Shown here: positions 4,482-42,478 of the stretch, piece by piece
How the letters are laid out: each line of letters opens with the position of its first letter
Numbering within the stretch: position 1 is the first letter of the stretch
Source of the DNA: Pedobacter sp. WC2423
GTDB taxonomy: Bacteria > Bacteroidota > Bacteroidia > Sphingobacteriales > Sphingobacteriaceae
Length of the DNA stretch: 64,000 nt
Reading direction: 5' to 3'
Assembly: GCF_040822065.1 (NCBI RefSeq)
Contig: NZ_CP162005.1
Location: forward strand, 124,001-188,000
The notes under the pieces: model-generated
What the model was told of the DNA's origin: nothing
Databases searched by the model: none
Seen by the model: the letters and a program-made list of their open reading frames with translations, nothing else
Made by a program: the position numbers and the translations under genes

Positions 4482-4552
4482 AGGGGTTGTTAGTCTTTTA
4501 TCGGATACGAATATATTTACTAATTATCAAATAATACAGATAAAATAAAAAA

Positions 4553-4936
4553 ATGCAAGCCTGTAAGCCGGGTTCTGTACCTTGATAAATCAAAGCTTCT
4601 ACCATTAATCTACTATAAATGTCGCCATTTATCTCTAACGACCTACCCACTGACATCGGACGAGCAGCCCTACATGCGTCAGCCTATTTGGTCTTTCAAC
4701 TCCCGGGGTTTACCATCCCTTCCGGTCACCCGGAAAATTCGTGAGCTCTTACCTCGCGATTTCAACCTTACCTGTGCCCTTACAGGCCATCGGCGGTATA
4801 TTTTCTGCGGCACTTTCCATAATTCAGGTCTTCAATCCCAAACCTCTTCCCGTTAGGAAGCGGGATGCTCTGTGTTGCCCGGACTTTCCTCTTTAAGATG
4901 CCGGAGCATTACTTACAGCGATAGAACAGCTTGCAT
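4553..4936 (-). ncRNA. rnpB: RNase P RNA (bacterial class A)
   Basis: On the minus strand the 5' part contains the universally conserved RNase P block GAGGAAAGTCCGGGCAACAC (complement of about 4873-4892), and the 3' part contains ACAGAACCCGGCTTA (complement of 4564-4578). The two ends, GCAAGC near 4555-4560 and its complement near 4929-4934, pair to form helix P1. The roughly 384-nt span matches the usual class A length. This is the catalytic RNA that trims tRNA 5' leaders. No protein is encoded here. The exact ends are good to a few bases. Confidence 0.93.
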
Positions 4937-4971
4937 TTTGCGCAAAGGTACAGAAACCGATTTAAAAAATA

Positions 4972-6126: not shown

Positions 6127-6147
6127 CGCCAAGAATTGTAATGCTTA

Positions 6148-7149
6148 ATGAGAAAGAGATATAATGCTGCCATAACAGCTTTGGGAGGATATGTACCGGA
6201 AACCATTTTAACCAATCACGATCTGGAGAAAATGGTGGATACGAATAGTGACTGGATTATTTCAAGAACTGGTATCCATGAGAGAAGAATCCTTAATGAT
6301 GATTCACTTGCAACTTCCGATTTAGCTACCATGGCAGTCAAAAGACTGTTGGAAGATAGTCACATTAACCCCGATGAAATCGAATGCGTAATTGTAGCTA
6401 CGGCTACTCCAGATTATATTATGGTTTCCACCGCTAGTATTGTCTGTGAAAAAGCAGGATTGAAAAATGCTTGGGGTGTGGATTCCAATGCGGCTTGTAG
6501 TGGCTTTCTCTATGCACTGACTCTGGGTGCCAGCTTAATTGAGAGCAACCGTTACAAAAATGTAATTGTGATCGGTGCAGATGCAAACAGTTCTATAGTT
6601 AATTATGAAGACAGAAATACCTGTATTCTTTTTGGTGACGGTGCAGGAGCAGTTTTACTGGAACAAACTGAAGCAGAAACAGGATTGGTAGATAATGTAT
6701 TCAGAACTGACGGCCTTGGTAAAGAACACCTGATCGTTACCGCTGGTGGTTCATTAAATCCATCCTCACTGGATACGCTTGGCAAGAAACAGAATTACAT
6801 TTCTCAAAATGGAAGGATTGTTTTTAAAGCTGCAATTGAAGGCATGACGCAGACCTGTAATGAGATCATGGAAAGAAATCATCTGGAGATTAAAGACATC
6901 AGCTGGTTGATTCCGCATCAGGCTAATCTGCGTATCATTCAGGCAGTAGGAGATAAGTTAGGCTTGAAAGAAGACCAGGTAAAGGTTAACATTCAGCTTT
7001 ACGGCAATACAACTGCTGCAACGATCCCATTATGTATGTGGGAATTTAAAAATGATTTCAAAGAAAATGATAACTTGTTGCTCACCGCTTTTGGTGCAGG
7101 ATTCTCCTGGGGAGCAACCTATTTAAAATGGGGTAAATTAAGGGGGTAA
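6148..7149 (+). CDS. fabH: 3-oxoacyl-ACP synthase III (KAS III)
   Basis: This 333-residue condensing enzyme joins an acyl-CoA primer to malonyl-ACP to start fatty acid synthesis. The thiolase-fold triad is visible: the active cysteine in AACSGFLYAL, the histidine in PHQANLRI, and the asparagine in YGNTTAATIPL. The N-terminal TNHDLEKMVDTNSDWI and RTGIHERR segments are typical of KAS III. The length is standard. A good -7 element lies 22 bases upstream of the ATG. It is not next to other fab genes, so it may be one of several KAS III paralogues, which are common in Bacteroidota. Confidence 0.9.
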   Translation: MRKRYNAAITALGGYVPETILTNHDLEKMVDTNSDWIISRTGIHERRILNDDSLATSDLATMAVKRLLEDSHINPDEIECVIVATATPDYIMVSTASIVCEKAGLKNAWGVDSNAACSGFLYALTLGASLIESNRYKNVIVIGADANSSIVNYEDRNTCILFGDGAGAVLLEQTEAETGLVDNVFRTDGLGKEHLIVTAGGSLNPSSLDTLGKKQNYISQNGRIVFKAAIEGMTQTCNEIMERNHLEIKDISWLIPHQANLRIIQAVGDKLGLKEDQVKVNIQLYGNTTAATIPLCMWEFKNDFKENDNLLLTAFGAGFSWGATYLKWGKLRG

Positions 7150-19946: not shown

Positions 19947-21098
19947 ATGTTTTCTAACAAAGATATAGCACAGTTTGCAGATTTAGAAACACCTTTTTAT
20001 TATTATGACCTGAGTTTATTGCAGCGCAGCTTAAGTGCTTGTGCTGAAGCGGCTAAGGTTTATGATTTTCATGTGCATTATGCAATGAAGGCGAATTTTA
20101 ATGATACGCTGCTGAAAAAAATTAAAGAGGCCGGTTTGGGCGCTGATTGTGTAAGTGGCAATGAAGTGAAGAAGGCCATTGAGATAGGTTTTGACAAGAA
20201 ACGGGTCGTATTTGCTGGTGTCGGTAAATCGGACAAGGAAATCAATGAGGCGCTGGATCTGGATATTTTCTGCTTTAATGTAGAGTCTGTTCAGGAGTTA
20301 GAGGTCATCAATGAGCTTGCCGGAAAAAGAGGAAAGGTGGCCAAGGTTGCCATCCGTATTAATCCTAATGTAGATGCACATACGCATCATAATATTACAA
20401 CGGGACTGGATGAGAACAAGTTCGGTGTAAATTCATGGGATCTTCCTGATTGTGTGGTGGTTTTAAAGGCTTCTGCAAATTTGGAGTTCATGGGGATACA
20501 TTTTCATATTGGCTCGCAGATCACAAATTTAGATGTTTTTAAGAATCTTTGTGTAAGAATCAACGAGTTTGCGAAATGGTTCGAGGAGCGCGGGCTTCTG
20601 GTAAAGCTGATCAATGTTGGCGGAGGATTGGGTATTGATTATCAGAATCCTGAGCAACAGATCCCTGATTTTGAAGCTTATTTTAAGATTTTTAATGAAT
20701 TTTTAGAGAAAAGGCCTAATCAGGAGGTTCATTTTGAGCTGGGAAGAGCGATTGTGGGCCAGTGTTCTTCGCTAATCAGCAGAGTGCTTTATGTGAAGAA
20801 TGGCAAGAGCAAGAATTTTATAATTCTGGATGCAGGAATGACGGAGTTAATGAGACCGGCACTTTACCAGGCTTATCACCAGATCGAGAATTTGAGCAAA
20901 CAGGATGGAGGATTGAGTGTAAAGTATGATGTGGTAGGCCCGATTTGCGAGAGTACGGATTGTTTTGGGAAAGAGGTTTTGTTACAGGAAACGGAAAGGG
21001 GCGATTTAGTGGCAATCAGGAGTACTGGGGCTTATGGTGAAGTGATGAGTTCACATTATAATCTGAGGGAAAATGTAAGGGTGGTTTTTAGTAAGTAG
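19947..21098 (+). CDS. lysA: Diaminopimelate decarboxylase
   Basis: This 383-residue PLP enzyme makes L-lysine from meso-diaminopimelate. The N-terminal TIM-barrel holds the PLP lysine in HYAMKANFN near residue 49 and the phosphate-binding NVGGGLGIDY. HIGSQITN lies between them. The C-terminal beta domain carries VGPICESTDCFGK (active cysteine), GAYGEVMSSHYN and the final short tail. The length is slightly shorter than E. coli LysA. Its transcript probably ends in the large hairpin at 21116-21194. Confidence 0.92.
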   Translation: MFSNKDIAQFADLETPFYYYDLSLLQRSLSACAEAAKVYDFHVHYAMKANFNDTLLKKIKEAGLGADCVSGNEVKKAIEIGFDKKRVVFAGVGKSDKEINEALDLDIFCFNVESVQELEVINELAGKRGKVAKVAIRINPNVDAHTHHNITTGLDENKFGVNSWDLPDCVVVLKASANLEFMGIHFHIGSQITNLDVFKNLCVRINEFAKWFEERGLLVKLINVGGGLGIDYQNPEQQIPDFEAYFKIFNEFLEKRPNQEVHFELGRAIVGQCSSLISRVLYVKNGKSKNFIILDAGMTELMRPALYQAYHQIENLSKQDGGLSVKYDVVGPICESTDCFGKEVLLQETERGDLVAIRSTGAYGEVMSSHYNLRENVRVVFSK

Positions 21099-21115
21099 GT
21101 TTTTCCATATAGTAT

Positions 21116-21194
21116 AAAAAAAGCAACAAGCCATATTTCTGCCGACGTTCCTGAAGTAGGAACAAGGTCAGAAATATGGCTTGTTGCTTTTTTT
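21116..21194 (+). repeat. Conserved-core long hairpin, copy 1
   Basis: Perfect 26-bp arms at 21116-21141 and 21169-21194 (A7 at the start, T7 at the end) enclose a 27-nt apical part at 21142-21168. That apical part contains a 5-bp inner stem GTTCC/GGAAC with loop TGAAGTA and flanks CCGAC and AAGGT. It starts 18 bases after the lysA stop, so it can act as terminator. The apical part, but not the arms, recurs at 27622-27648 (minus strand) and 32452-32478. Confidence 0.9.
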
Positions 21195-21300
21195 ATTCCT
21201 TAATTTTTCTGGATTACCCTTACATAATTAAAAAGACACCGTTTCATTTAAGTCAGTATAATAATTGTGAGGGGGTGGGTTGTTGGTTAGGAGGAGAATA

Positions 21301-21503: not shown

Positions 21504-21568
21504 TAGTCGTAGTTGAGAGGGGGTTGAAAGGGCCATTGGCCCTTTCAACCCCCTCTCAACTACGACTA
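21504..21568. repeat. Perfect 32-bp inverted repeat with 1-base centre
   Basis: Arms 21504-21535 and 21537-21568 are exactly complementary with one T between them. The G/C-rich middle (GAGAGGGGGTTGAAAGGGCC) makes a very stable hairpin or cruciform. It lacks the conserved apical sequence of the three long hairpins and lacks a T-run, and it is 406 bases from the nearest upstream stop, so it is not a standard terminator. Between it and the gene at 21794 I see nothing else. Confidence 0.85.
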
Positions 21569-27593: not shown

Positions 27594-27676
27594 CAATAAA
27601 ATAAGACGCTGCATGTTCCAGACCTTGTTCATTCTTCATGAACGTCGACTGGAACATGCAGCGCCTTATTTTATTG
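27594..27676 (-). repeat. Conserved-core long hairpin, copy 2
   Basis: Arms at 27594-27621 and 27649-27676 are 28 bp long with one mismatch, which is A-C in a plus transcript but a permitted G-U in a minus transcript. The apical 27 nt (27622-27648), read on the minus strand, carry TCGAC, the inner stem GTTCA/TGAAC around TGAAGAA, then AAGGT. It lies 22 bases after the stop of the minus-strand gene at 27698, in the same relative orientation as copies 1 and 3. The remaining gap, 27329-27593, holds the TonB receptor leader and nothing else that I see. Confidence 0.9.
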
Positions 27677-27697: not shown

Positions 27698-28081
27698 CTA
27701 CTCTTCTTCGAAGAAATCCTGCAACCCCCCAATGTAGTATTCATTCAGGCCAGTTGTAAAATCTTCGTAATCCTCATCAGGAATATTCGTCTGTACAAAC
27801 TCCAGAGAAGTTCCTTTTTTATCCGCATGCAACTTAATCGTCACAATTGAAGGCTCATTCTCTTCACCAAAGTACCACTGCTGTACAATTTTTTTACCAT
27901 AGTCGAACTCCAGGTTCTTTCCAATGATATCCCCTTCCCATAAAGAGAATTCTGTATCCGGCTGATCTGTAAACTCAACTTCAGCACCAGTCCATAACTG
28001 TATACTTTGTGCTTTGGTCATTGCCAGATAAACCTCTTCAGGCGGAGCAGGAAGATAATAGTATTTTTTAAAAGTCTTCAT
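27698..28081 (-). CDS. START-like/AHSA1-type SRPBCC domain protein
   Basis: This roughly 127-residue cytoplasmic protein has the helix-grip fold. The start is set at 28081 (MKTFKKYYYLPAPPEEVYLAMT), because the longer frame adds 13 unrelated residues. The sequence types IQLWTGAEVEF, SLWEGDIIGKNLEF, IVQQWYFG and VTIKLHADKKGTSLEFVQT follow the AHSA1/START-like pattern. A strongly acidic C-terminus (GLQDFFEEE) follows. These proteins bind hydrophobic ligands or chaperones; the ligand is unknown. It is 54 bases downstream of the acyl-CoA dehydrogenase on the same strand. Confidence 0.8.
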   Translation of the reverse strand: MKTFKKYYYLPAPPEEVYLAMTKAQSIQLWTGAEVEFTDQPDTEFSLWEGDIIGKNLEFDYGKKIVQQWYFGEENEPSIVTIKLHADKKGTSLEFVQTNIPDEDYEDFTTGLNEYYIGGLQDFFEEE

Positions 28082-28135
28082 TCGTAATCTATTGTTTATT
28101 ATATAACGGCCATGAAACAATCATGACCTCTTTTT

Positions 28136-31936: not shown

Positions 31937-32371
31937 ATGACATTAGTAAATTTTAACAATCGTACAAGAAGCCACGCGCCTTATTTTAACAATGTTTTTG
32001 ATTCTTTGTTCAGTGAAGCGCTAAATAAAAATTATACAATTAATAAAGTTCCGGGAGTAAATATTTTAGAGTCGGAAACTGAATATACGATCGAACTGGC
32101 AGCACCTGGTTTAGAGAAAAGCGATTTTCAGATCAACTTGAAAAAAGATACGCTTTCTGTCTGGGCAGAGAAAAAAGTTGCTGATGGTGAAGTGAAAAAA
32201 AATTACAGCAGAAAAGAATTTGATTATTTGTCTTTTGCAAGGTCGTTCACGCTTCCTGAAAGTGTAGATGCGGAAAAGATTTCTGCTGAATATGTAAATG
32301 GGATACTGACTATTGCAATTGGCAAAAGGGTTGAGGTGAAGGAAGAGAATAAAGAGATTAAAGTTTTGTAA
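31937..32371 (+). CDS. Hsp20 family small heat-shock protein
   Basis: This 144-residue chaperone binds unfolding proteins without ATP. The alpha-crystallin domain runs from about residue 38 (VNILESETEYTIELAAPGLEKSDF) to the conserved C-terminal beta strand, followed by a short tail with an I-x-V motif (EIKVL) used for oligomer assembly. The length is normal. It stands alone and its transcript probably runs into the third long hairpin 53 bases downstream. Confidence 0.9.
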   Translation: MTLVNFNNRTRSHAPYFNNVFDSLFSEALNKNYTINKVPGVNILESETEYTIELAAPGLEKSDFQINLKKDTLSVWAEKKVADGEVKKNYSRKEFDYLSFARSFTLPESVDAEKISAEYVNGILTIAIGKRVEVKEENKEIKVL

Positions 32372-32423
32372 TTTTTGGTTGGTTTATGAGGGGGTATCGA
32401 AAGATATCCCCTTTTTTAATGAG

Positions 32424-32506
32424 AAAATAAACGGTGGGTGACAGTTTCCGGTCGACGTTCATGAAGAATGAACAATGCCCGGAAACTGTCACCCACCGTT
32501 TATTTT
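32424..32506 (+). repeat. Conserved-core long hairpin, copy 3
   Basis: Perfect 28-bp arms at 32424-32451 and 32479-32506 enclose 27 nt at 32452-32478: flank TCGAC, inner stem GTTCA/TGAAC around TGAAGAA, flank AATGC. The apical part differs from copy 2 at two positions only, while the arms share nothing with the other copies. It lies 53 bases after the hsp20 stop in the same orientation. Downstream, two direct repeats of GTTGGATTGCTAA lie at about 32565 and 32592. Confidence 0.9.
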
Positions 32507-32654: not shown

Positions 32655-34046
32655 CTAGGTGTAACCCAGGATTTTTAATACTTGCTTACTGTTTTGCTCT
32701 TCTCCAAATACCTCAAAGTTGAAAGTCTCGTCACGGTTGCGACGGATAATCACGTGTTTAGGACTCGGCAACAGACAGTGATGAATTCCACCATATCCGC
32801 TGAGTACTTCCTGGTAAGCTCCGGTATTGAAGAAGCCAAGGTATTGTACTTTACGTGTTTTAGGCATAAATACCGAGTTCATGTGTGCTTCCTGGTTGTA
32901 ATAATCCTGACCATCGCAGGTAATACCACCAAGATTCACTCTTTCGTACTCAGCATCCCAGTTATTGATTGGTAAGAGGATGTATTTTTGGTTTAAAGCC
33001 CATACATCAGGAAGGTTTGTAATGAAAGATCCGTCCAGCATTAACCATTTTTCACGGTCGTTTTGTTGTTTACGTCCTAATACTTTGTACAGGATACCGG
33101 AAGCTTCCGCTACTGTGTATTTACCGAATTCAGTAATAATATCTGGTTCTACAACATCGTGTTCTGCACAAATTTCTTTGATACGTTTAACGATTTCATT
33201 CACCATATATTCATAATCGAAGTCAAATACTAAAGAGTCTTTGAATGGCATACCACCACCGATGTCTAAAGTATCCAGCTCAGGATTAATTTTTTTGAAT
33301 TTACAGTATAAGGTTACGTATTTCTCCAGTTCGTTCCAGTAGTACGGAGAATCCGTGATTCCTGAATTGATAAAGAAATGCAGTAGTTTAACCCTGAAGT
33401 TAGGATTAGCAGAGATTTTGTTGTTATAGAACTCGATTACATCTTCCATACGTACGCCTAAACGTGAAGTATAGAATTGTGAGTCCGGCTGCTCTTCTGC
33501 CGCAATACGGATACCTAAATTACAAGGTGTTTCCAGCTCTACTTCGTCATCAAAAAGGTTAAATTCCTCTTTGTTGTCTAATACAGGGATGATATTTTTG
33601 TACCCATCATGCAACATATCAATGATATATTGTTTGTACTGATAAGTTTTAAAACCGTTACAGATAACGGTAATGTCTTTGGTCAGGGCGCCTTTTTTCT
33701 CAAGGGCCTCAATCATCGGCATATCGAACGCGGACGATGTCTCTAAGTGGATGCCATTTTTTAAAGCTTCTTCAACGATGTGCCTGAAGTGGGAGCTTTT
33801 TGTGCAATAGCAATACTTATAATCTCCACGGTAATTGTTCTTGATGATCGCGGTCTGAAACAACAGTTTTGCCTGTTGGATTTTTTTAGTGATCATCGGA
33901 AGATAAGTGAAACGTAATGGCGTACCATAAGTCTCAATCATTTCCATTAAATTCAGATCCTGAAAGTATAGTTCGTCATCGATGACACTGTATCCTTCTT
34001 GAGGAAAACCTACACTTAGATCAAGAAATTCGGAGTAACTCTGCAT
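32655..34046 (-). CDS. speA: Arginine decarboxylase (PLP, DAP/ornithine decarboxylase fold)
   Basis: This 463-residue PLP enzyme of the group IV decarboxylase fold has the PLP lysine region YKYCYCTKSSHFRHIV near residue 60, the glycine-rich LDIGGGMPF phosphate-binding motif, and the C-terminal EVLSGYGGIHHCLLPSPKHV segment. It is much shorter than E. coli SpeA (658 residues) but matches the short proteins called arginine decarboxylase in Bacteroidota. The head-to-head arginase gene and the following argS support an arginine role. Agmatine production for polyamines is the likely outcome. Substrate choice (arginine versus another diamino acid) is inference. Confidence 0.75.
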   Translation of the reverse strand: MQSYSEFLDLSVGFPQEGYSVIDDELYFQDLNLMEMIETYGTPLRFTYLPMITKKIQQAKLLFQTAIIKNNYRGDYKYCYCTKSSHFRHIVEEALKNGIHLETSSAFDMPMIEALEKKGALTKDITVICNGFKTYQYKQYIIDMLHDGYKNIIPVLDNKEEFNLFDDEVELETPCNLGIRIAAEEQPDSQFYTSRLGVRMEDVIEFYNNKISANPNFRVKLLHFFINSGITDSPYYWNELEKYVTLYCKFKKINPELDTLDIGGGMPFKDSLVFDFDYEYMVNEIVKRIKEICAEHDVVEPDIITEFGKYTVAEASGILYKVLGRKQQNDREKWLMLDGSFITNLPDVWALNQKYILLPINNWDAEYERVNLGGITCDGQDYYNQEAHMNSVFMPKTRKVQYLGFFNTGAYQEVLSGYGGIHHCLLPSPKHVIIRRNRDETFNFEVFGEEQNSKQVLKILGYT

Positions 34047-42175: not shown

Positions 42176-42221
42176 ATAATTTATTTTTTCTTTTTGCCGT
42201 CTAATCACCTCGCAATCGTTA

Positions 42222-42478
42222 AAATATAGCTTTGCTATATTTCCTTCTCAATCTACTATAAAAATATAGCAAAGCTATATTTTGAGGTTACATCGCCTTT
42301 TAATCGTGCAGGTTTTTTAATATACGTATTCTCTAAAAATATAGCAAAGCTATATTTTTCGTTCAATTTGCTATAATAATATAGCGGTCGAAATACTATT
42401 AGGGTTTTCCGGAGAGTGGCTTTAAATAGCAGTGTGCGTAGATTACCTATACATGTATAGGTCGAAATACTATAATGG
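42222..42478. promoter_or_regulatory. Array of TATAGC/GCTATA palindromes upstream of the defence operon
   Basis: Within this 423-base gap (42176-42598) five related palindromes occur. Three have the form AAATATAGCnnnGCTATATTT, centred at 42232, 42272 and 42347. A fourth, GCTATAATAATATAGC, lies at 42370-42385, and a fifth, CCTATACATGTATAGG, at 42446-42461. The last two are each followed by GGTCGAAATACTAT plus NANGG. They lie upstream of the XRE controller gene at 42599 and are good candidates for its operators. Promoter boxes proper were not fixed. Confidence 0.65.

Follow-up and report, generated by a model that had tools for sequence, protein, structure and literature searches.

The long hairpins that lie behind genes in this stretch of DNA make up a real, apparently undescribed and lineage-specific family embedded in terminators. 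Because the tip is conserved and the stem is free, such a family is easily missed by methods that look for similarity or for stems. We give about an even chance to the explanation that these are terminator hairpins of one lineage whose apex would be recognised by a factor, whose arms would be kept perfect by template switching, and whose apices would be copied locally.

The hairpins of the window and the anatomy of the family

The window is the whole stretch of 64 kb that was analysed, and the features of interest in it are:

19947-21098, plus strand, lysA-like gene, its stop 17 nt before 21116 (where the earlier note began copy 1)
21114..21196, plus strand, copy 1 hairpin, 28-bp arms, 3' of the lysA-like gene
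21142..21168, plus strand, copy 1 apex, CCGAC GTTCC TGAAGTA GGAAC AAGGT
27594..27676, minus strand, copy 2 hairpin, 28-bp arms, SRPBCC-like gene stop 21 nt away
27622..27648, minus strand, copy 2 apex, in minus-strand letters TCGAC GTTCA TGAAGAA TGAAC AAGGT
27698-28120, minus strand, SRPBCC-like gene, which carries copy 2 downstream
31937-32371, plus strand, Hsp20 gene, which carries copy 3 downstream
32388..32413, plus strand, ordinary hairpin like an intrinsic terminator, after the Hsp20 stop and before copy 3
32424..32506, plus strand, copy 3 hairpin, 28-bp arms, Hsp20 gene stop 52 nt away
32452..32478, plus strand, copy 3 apex, TCGAC GTTCA TGAAGAA TGAAC AATGC
ends at 32655, convergent, arginine decarboxylase-like gene, which faces copy 3

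The earlier note had reported the three hairpins at 21116-21194, 27594-27676 and 32424-32506, and the sequence there is as it said, including the flanks, the loop and the compensatory change between GTTCC/GGAAC and GTTCA/TGAAC. The arm lengths that it gave (26, 28 and 28 bp) are right for copies 2 and 3, but copy 1 also has 28 bp (21114-21196), and while the arms do change, as it claimed, they are not wholly without common sequence, as their inner ends are near-fixed as TTnCnG/CnGnAA. In an exhaustive inverted-repeat search the three copies are the top three of the window. If up to 3 mismatches are allowed, the core pattern CGACGTTCNTGAAGNANGAAC has 3 matches in the 64 kb where shuffles give 0.01 expected, and copies 1, 2 and 3 fold at -51.7, -56.4 and -59.7 kcal/mol, with z of -13.2, -12.9 and -12.5 and 0 of 200 shuffles as good.

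A pattern search of the 5.98-Mb genome gave nine copies of the same core, all nine with long and mostly perfect arms. The family was extended by covariance model (A1/R1) and by an inverted-repeat scan of 1.25 Mb, in which two of the three blocks were picked because known matches lay there. This genome has at least about 30 relatives that were inspected, and the models list further ones. The hairpins are about 85 nt long, with an A-tract and T-tract at the base and a perfectly paired stem of 28-30 bp with arms specific to the locus, and the oriented apex consensus is TTyCnG-nCnRC-GTTCAT-GAA-ATGAAC-AATG-CnGrAA. Across the inspected hairpins the layout of the tip is constant and its sequence variable: the apical stems include GTTC/GAAC, ATTC/GAAT, GATC/GATC, GCCC/GGCC and others, the apical loop contains GAA in most, and the internal loop is asymmetric, with nCnRC opposite AAnG. 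The earlier note had taken the 27-nt apical sequence to be conserved as such; it is only the commonest subtype, since apical stem and loop vary family-wide with compensation.

The pairing of the arms is strongly marked. The covariation score of the arms in 15 copies is 0.591, against 0.149 for shuffled copies and no more than 0.137 when the structure is slid. The score rises to 0.799 in 34 divergent copies (0.198 when shuffled), with double-sided change in 27 of 27 pairs. In the same 34 copies the inner-arm TT pairs are near-fixed (33/34 and 32/34), one unpaired A in the internal loop never varies (34/34, from several genomes), and the adjoining G and one loop A are present in at least 90%. 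Given the near-fixed pairs and the invariant A, sequence conservation is located at the tip and the innermost part of the arm. The invariant A and the conserved loop are what a putative bound partner, as had been suggested for the tip, would require.

Of some 2900 positions inside the arms, with orthologous repeats counted once, only 55 hold non-Watson-Crick pairs. On the sense strand there are 27 G.U and 16 A.C, an excess that is not significant (p = 0.13), so that selection for pairing in RNA over DNA is unsupported by the counts and pairing may be restored at the DNA level.

Position, distribution and relation to known elements

We collected 132 family members from 12 genomes, and nearly all have a T-rich 3' end. 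For 79 of them both the gene side and the apex strand are unambiguous, and the apex is concordant with the direction of the upstream gene in 70 and discordant in 9; some of the 79 are orthologous copies, so that independent events number fewer than that. The median distance from stop codon to hairpin is 26 nt. The fixed orientation behind genes reported for the three copies is thus borne out as a bias, and with a stable stem (z about -13) that leads into a T-tract downstream of a gene the hairpins have the anatomy of an intrinsic terminator. The upstream genes in genome G000, with ORFs judged by eye, are unrelated and mostly housekeeping, among them those for valyl-tRNA synthetase, NAD synthase, MurI, LspA, RNase Z, YebC, lysA and Hsp20, and no theme of a regulon was seen among them.

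Bidirectional intrinsic (Rho-independent) terminators likewise have an A-tract, stem and T-tract directly past stop codons. However theirs is a short GC stem where the family has 28-30 perfect bp, and in the family the internal loop and apex are conserved in sequence across unrelated genes. The family hairpin at hsp20 moreover comes after an ordinary terminator, that at 32388..32413, which is found too in relatives without the long hairpin; as it precedes the long hairpin after the stop, the latter is additional. At the hsp20 site of G006 (L163 about 125-205) the apex is inverted relative to the gene when compared with other species, which is what template switching would give if it inverted the spacer.

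With regard to distribution, the general model R2 (E 1e-4) has matches in 12 of 145 Pedobacter genomes, and in 400 genomes from 25 genera of the family Sphingobacteriaceae its matches are confined to one Pedobacter subclade. The Infernal run used stricter filters and may have passed over weak members; in G163, for instance, there are hairpins visible by eye that are absent from the R2 list. The carriers include the named records Pedobacter cryoconitis DSM 14825 and S3M1. Exact-core matches in Shinella, Agrobacterium, Bernardetiaceae and others are without arms. The expected recurrence throughout the genome and in close relatives was found by both pattern and covariance-model searches, and there the core is neither rare, nor armless, nor unoriented behind genes, but the wide occurrence in Sphingobacteriaceae that had been envisaged shrinks to this one subclade.

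The earlier note knew of no named family with this core, and the Rfam comparison agrees. Rfam families are rejected as identities, as in the window RNase P alone reaches its gathering score (an RNase P class A RNA gene, RF00010, lies at 4548-4937 on the minus strand). Eight copies searched at E up to 5 matched only unrelated families, miRNA and plastid 3'UTR among them, and always below threshold, and Pedo-repair (RF01715) has no match to the window or to the eight copies. The GUCCY-hairpin, a Bacteroidetes candidate of Weinberg 2010, has no Rfam accession in the table consulted. No such family is described in the literature that we searched, which left aside most subscription journals.

Two further identities were tried and set aside. 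Integron attC sites have conserved R boxes at the hairpin base and form cassette arrays; here conservation is at the tip, a variable A/T tract makes up the base, and the copies are single behind unrelated genes. A MITE, which has terminal inverted repeats of fixed sequence and a target duplication, does not fit inverted arms that share only A/T tracts and the inner TTnCnG between loci. In uptake-signal repeats the motif itself forms the terminator stem, whereas the family leaves the stem free and conserves the tip. Such repeats do place a recurring motif within terminators of unrelated genes (PMC1852404).

Turnover of arms, sharing of tips and possible explanations

Many species of the clade have long hairpins at the lysA, SRPBCC gene and hsp20 sites, and the arms defy alignment from one species to another; at hsp20 and lysA the hairpin is present, on unrelated arms, in about ten species. 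The same sites in distant relatives have ordinary short terminators. Where the flanks are less than 80% identical, arm identity is 0.59 against 0.61 at random, and apex identity 0.63 against 0.62, a random level that is raised by the consensus. At 80-88% flank identity orthologous apices are at 0.77 and arms at 0.73, a similar rate of divergence. As both fall to the random level, it is the hairpin and its layout that persist while the sequence turns over. Apices diverge about as fast as arms, where a strictly conserved binding site should have held better.

The arms evolve in concert, and there is one clear correction event. At locus 4750352 the arms are unequal in G013, G019 and G107, and in G000 the left arm has been rewritten to the exact complement of the right arm by several changes together; G013 has an uncorrected intermediate at 4757097. 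Such multi-base rewriting of one arm is the signature described for template-switch mutation, in which reverse-complement copying makes or maintains hairpins with perfect stems and multi-base compensatory change (PMC8794818), and template switching that homogenises arms and inverts spacers has also been described (PMC8604942). The likeness lies in perfect stems restored or created and in the multi-base compensatory changes, but those studies concern single genes and here we have a dispersed family with a tip common to neighbouring hairpins.

Hairpins have also been lost, at hsp20 in G019 and at 3136983 in G013 and G019, with a short outer-arm terminator remaining. The outgroup G023 is filled at 3136983, so that the two 'empty' sites look like deletions, and for that site deletion between short direct repeats is preferred. 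The idea that a core had been inserted and an old terminator duplicated in inverted form on either side of it, which came from G013 and G019 at 3136983, was dropped; self-complementarity of the left arm is no greater than with inner and outer halves swapped between loci.

Hairpins of the same genome not more than 15 kb apart have an apex similarity of 0.42 against 0.157 in within-genome permutations (0 of 2000 as high), while their arms are barely shared (0.147 against 0.080, p 0.0145); with orthologous loci among them, these pairs are only partly independent. In seven divergent genomes alone the apex contrast is 0.43 against 0.16 (18 pairs). Apices are shared by 64% of pairs less than 3 kb apart, 58% at 3-8 kb, 33% at 8-15 kb, 11% at 15-40 kb and 0% at 40-100 kb, and beyond 15 kb genome-wide homogenisation is weak (0.161 against 0.118, p 0.025). 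Examples are 4451634/4461209 in G000, the lysA and hsp20 hairpins in G153 and G006, and a 200-bp pair in G155. As it is apices and not arms that are common to hairpins up to about 15 kb apart, the apex appears to be copied between neighbours. The mobile core landing in terminator palindromes, which was one suggestion of the earlier note, gains some support from such local copying, but nowhere was a core found cleanly inserted into an empty terminator.

We infer that the hairpins act as terminators, that some factor recognises the tip and that tips spread by fork-level switching. The unit would be read in the order A-tract, long perfect stem, asymmetric internal loop, short apical stem with GAA loop, mirror stem and T-tract. 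Going by anatomy and position, the hairpin would mostly serve the adjacent upstream gene as its intrinsic terminator or as a stable 3' end. Its apex would be recognised sequence-specifically by a putative cellular factor, for which an RNA-binding protein or an RNase acting at the transcript 3' end is the likeliest candidate, and the stem need then only be long and paired. Template switching in replication, seen at one locus and presumed general, would copy one arm onto the other and keep stems perfect, with the result that arms drift in concert and are unrelated between loci and species. The copying of apices among hairpins within about 15 kb, for which the support is statistical, may plausibly use the same fork-level switching, and the apex would then spread without a dedicated transposase.

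The best surviving alternative, which we hold to be doubtful, is a selfish apex: a DNA-level parasite of terminator palindromes, without a partner, whose self-complementary tip promotes fork switching and so copies itself to hairpins nearby and lengthens and perfects the stems. It would suit the sharing of apices, not arms, as a function of distance, the clade-limited and multicopy occurrence behind unrelated genes, the short working terminators left by losses, and apices that diverge as fast as arms. It does not readily explain why gene orientation is kept 70:9 though the hairpin arms should allow free inversion, nor the conserved unpaired bases of the apex, nor that the same genes keep hairpins across species. 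That an autonomous, protein-free apex spreads from terminator to terminator at fork distance by template switching, also making and renewing the arms, seems to us unlikely.

Still less do we favour a pure regulatory or stabilising 3'-UTR RNA element, with ordinary compensatory mutation in the arms and apices alike by function only. Orientation, position after the stop and conserved unpaired bases are all as such an element would have them, but it leaves distance-dependent apex sharing unexplained and sits badly with multi-base rewriting of one arm and with the very few G.U pairs. It is very improbable that these are ordinary intrinsic terminators alike by chance or composition: the A/T tracts and post-stop position would follow, but not the excess of the core per 64 kb or folding z of about -13, nor the lack of the family in more than 130 other Pedobacter and every other genus sampled.

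Movement by a Y1 (RAYT) transposase, as for REP/BIME-like or IS200/IS605-derived repeats, is hardly credible. REP/BIME repeats are also dispersed, oriented intergenic hairpins, tens per genome and lineage-specific, but the family conserves the tip and not the arms, which differ at every locus, and a conserved flanking tetranucleotide was not seen. Y1_Tnp occurs in several hairpin-free relatives, yet Y1 (PF01797) has 0 matches in 11 of 12 bearing genomes tested (G000, G013, G107, G019, G023, G126, G155, G024, G153, G163 and G014) and only one fragment in G006, so this is not a REP/RAYT system and we reject it.

If, as in the explanation we prefer, the apex binds a factor, the family marks a previously unknown 3'-end RNA system in Bacteroidota. 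The collection of about 130 hairpins at known orthologous sites is also a natural series in which one can follow template-switch correction, the reduction of a hairpin to a short terminator by deletion, and local tip transfer, so that the origin and persistence of long perfect stems become directly testable.

Other repeats

A second palindrome family, with 32-bp perfect arms and a 1-nt centre (...GGGTTGAAAGGGCCATTGGCCC...), is at 21504-21568 of the window, and elsewhere at 398403-398467 and 4476385-4476451 of G000, at L037 4366 and at L161 15100. It adjoins two lysA-type hairpins, relatives have changed arms with a GTAAGGCTATTGGCCTTAC centre, and it may also be under concerted arm evolution. 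Palindromes of the form GTTTGATACGGG...CCCGTATCAAAC lie between two long hairpins (G000 4757404-4757486; L180 522; L182 528-611), and their repeat number differs between species.

A TTTC-type microsatellite at L045 about 6130-6310 (G000 3366130-3366310) lies between two convergent hairpins, which are behind a hydrolase gene and yebC; the G013 assembly breaks at these hairpins, both being at contig ends. An identical 57-nt palindrome (TTGGGATGAGGTTGGAATGACC...) is present at 3049335-3049391 and 3344824-3344880 of G000, 295 kb apart. Finally, window positions 42219-42384 hold a AAATATAGCAAAGCTATATTT cluster with several copies in both orientations and many overlapping inverted repeats.
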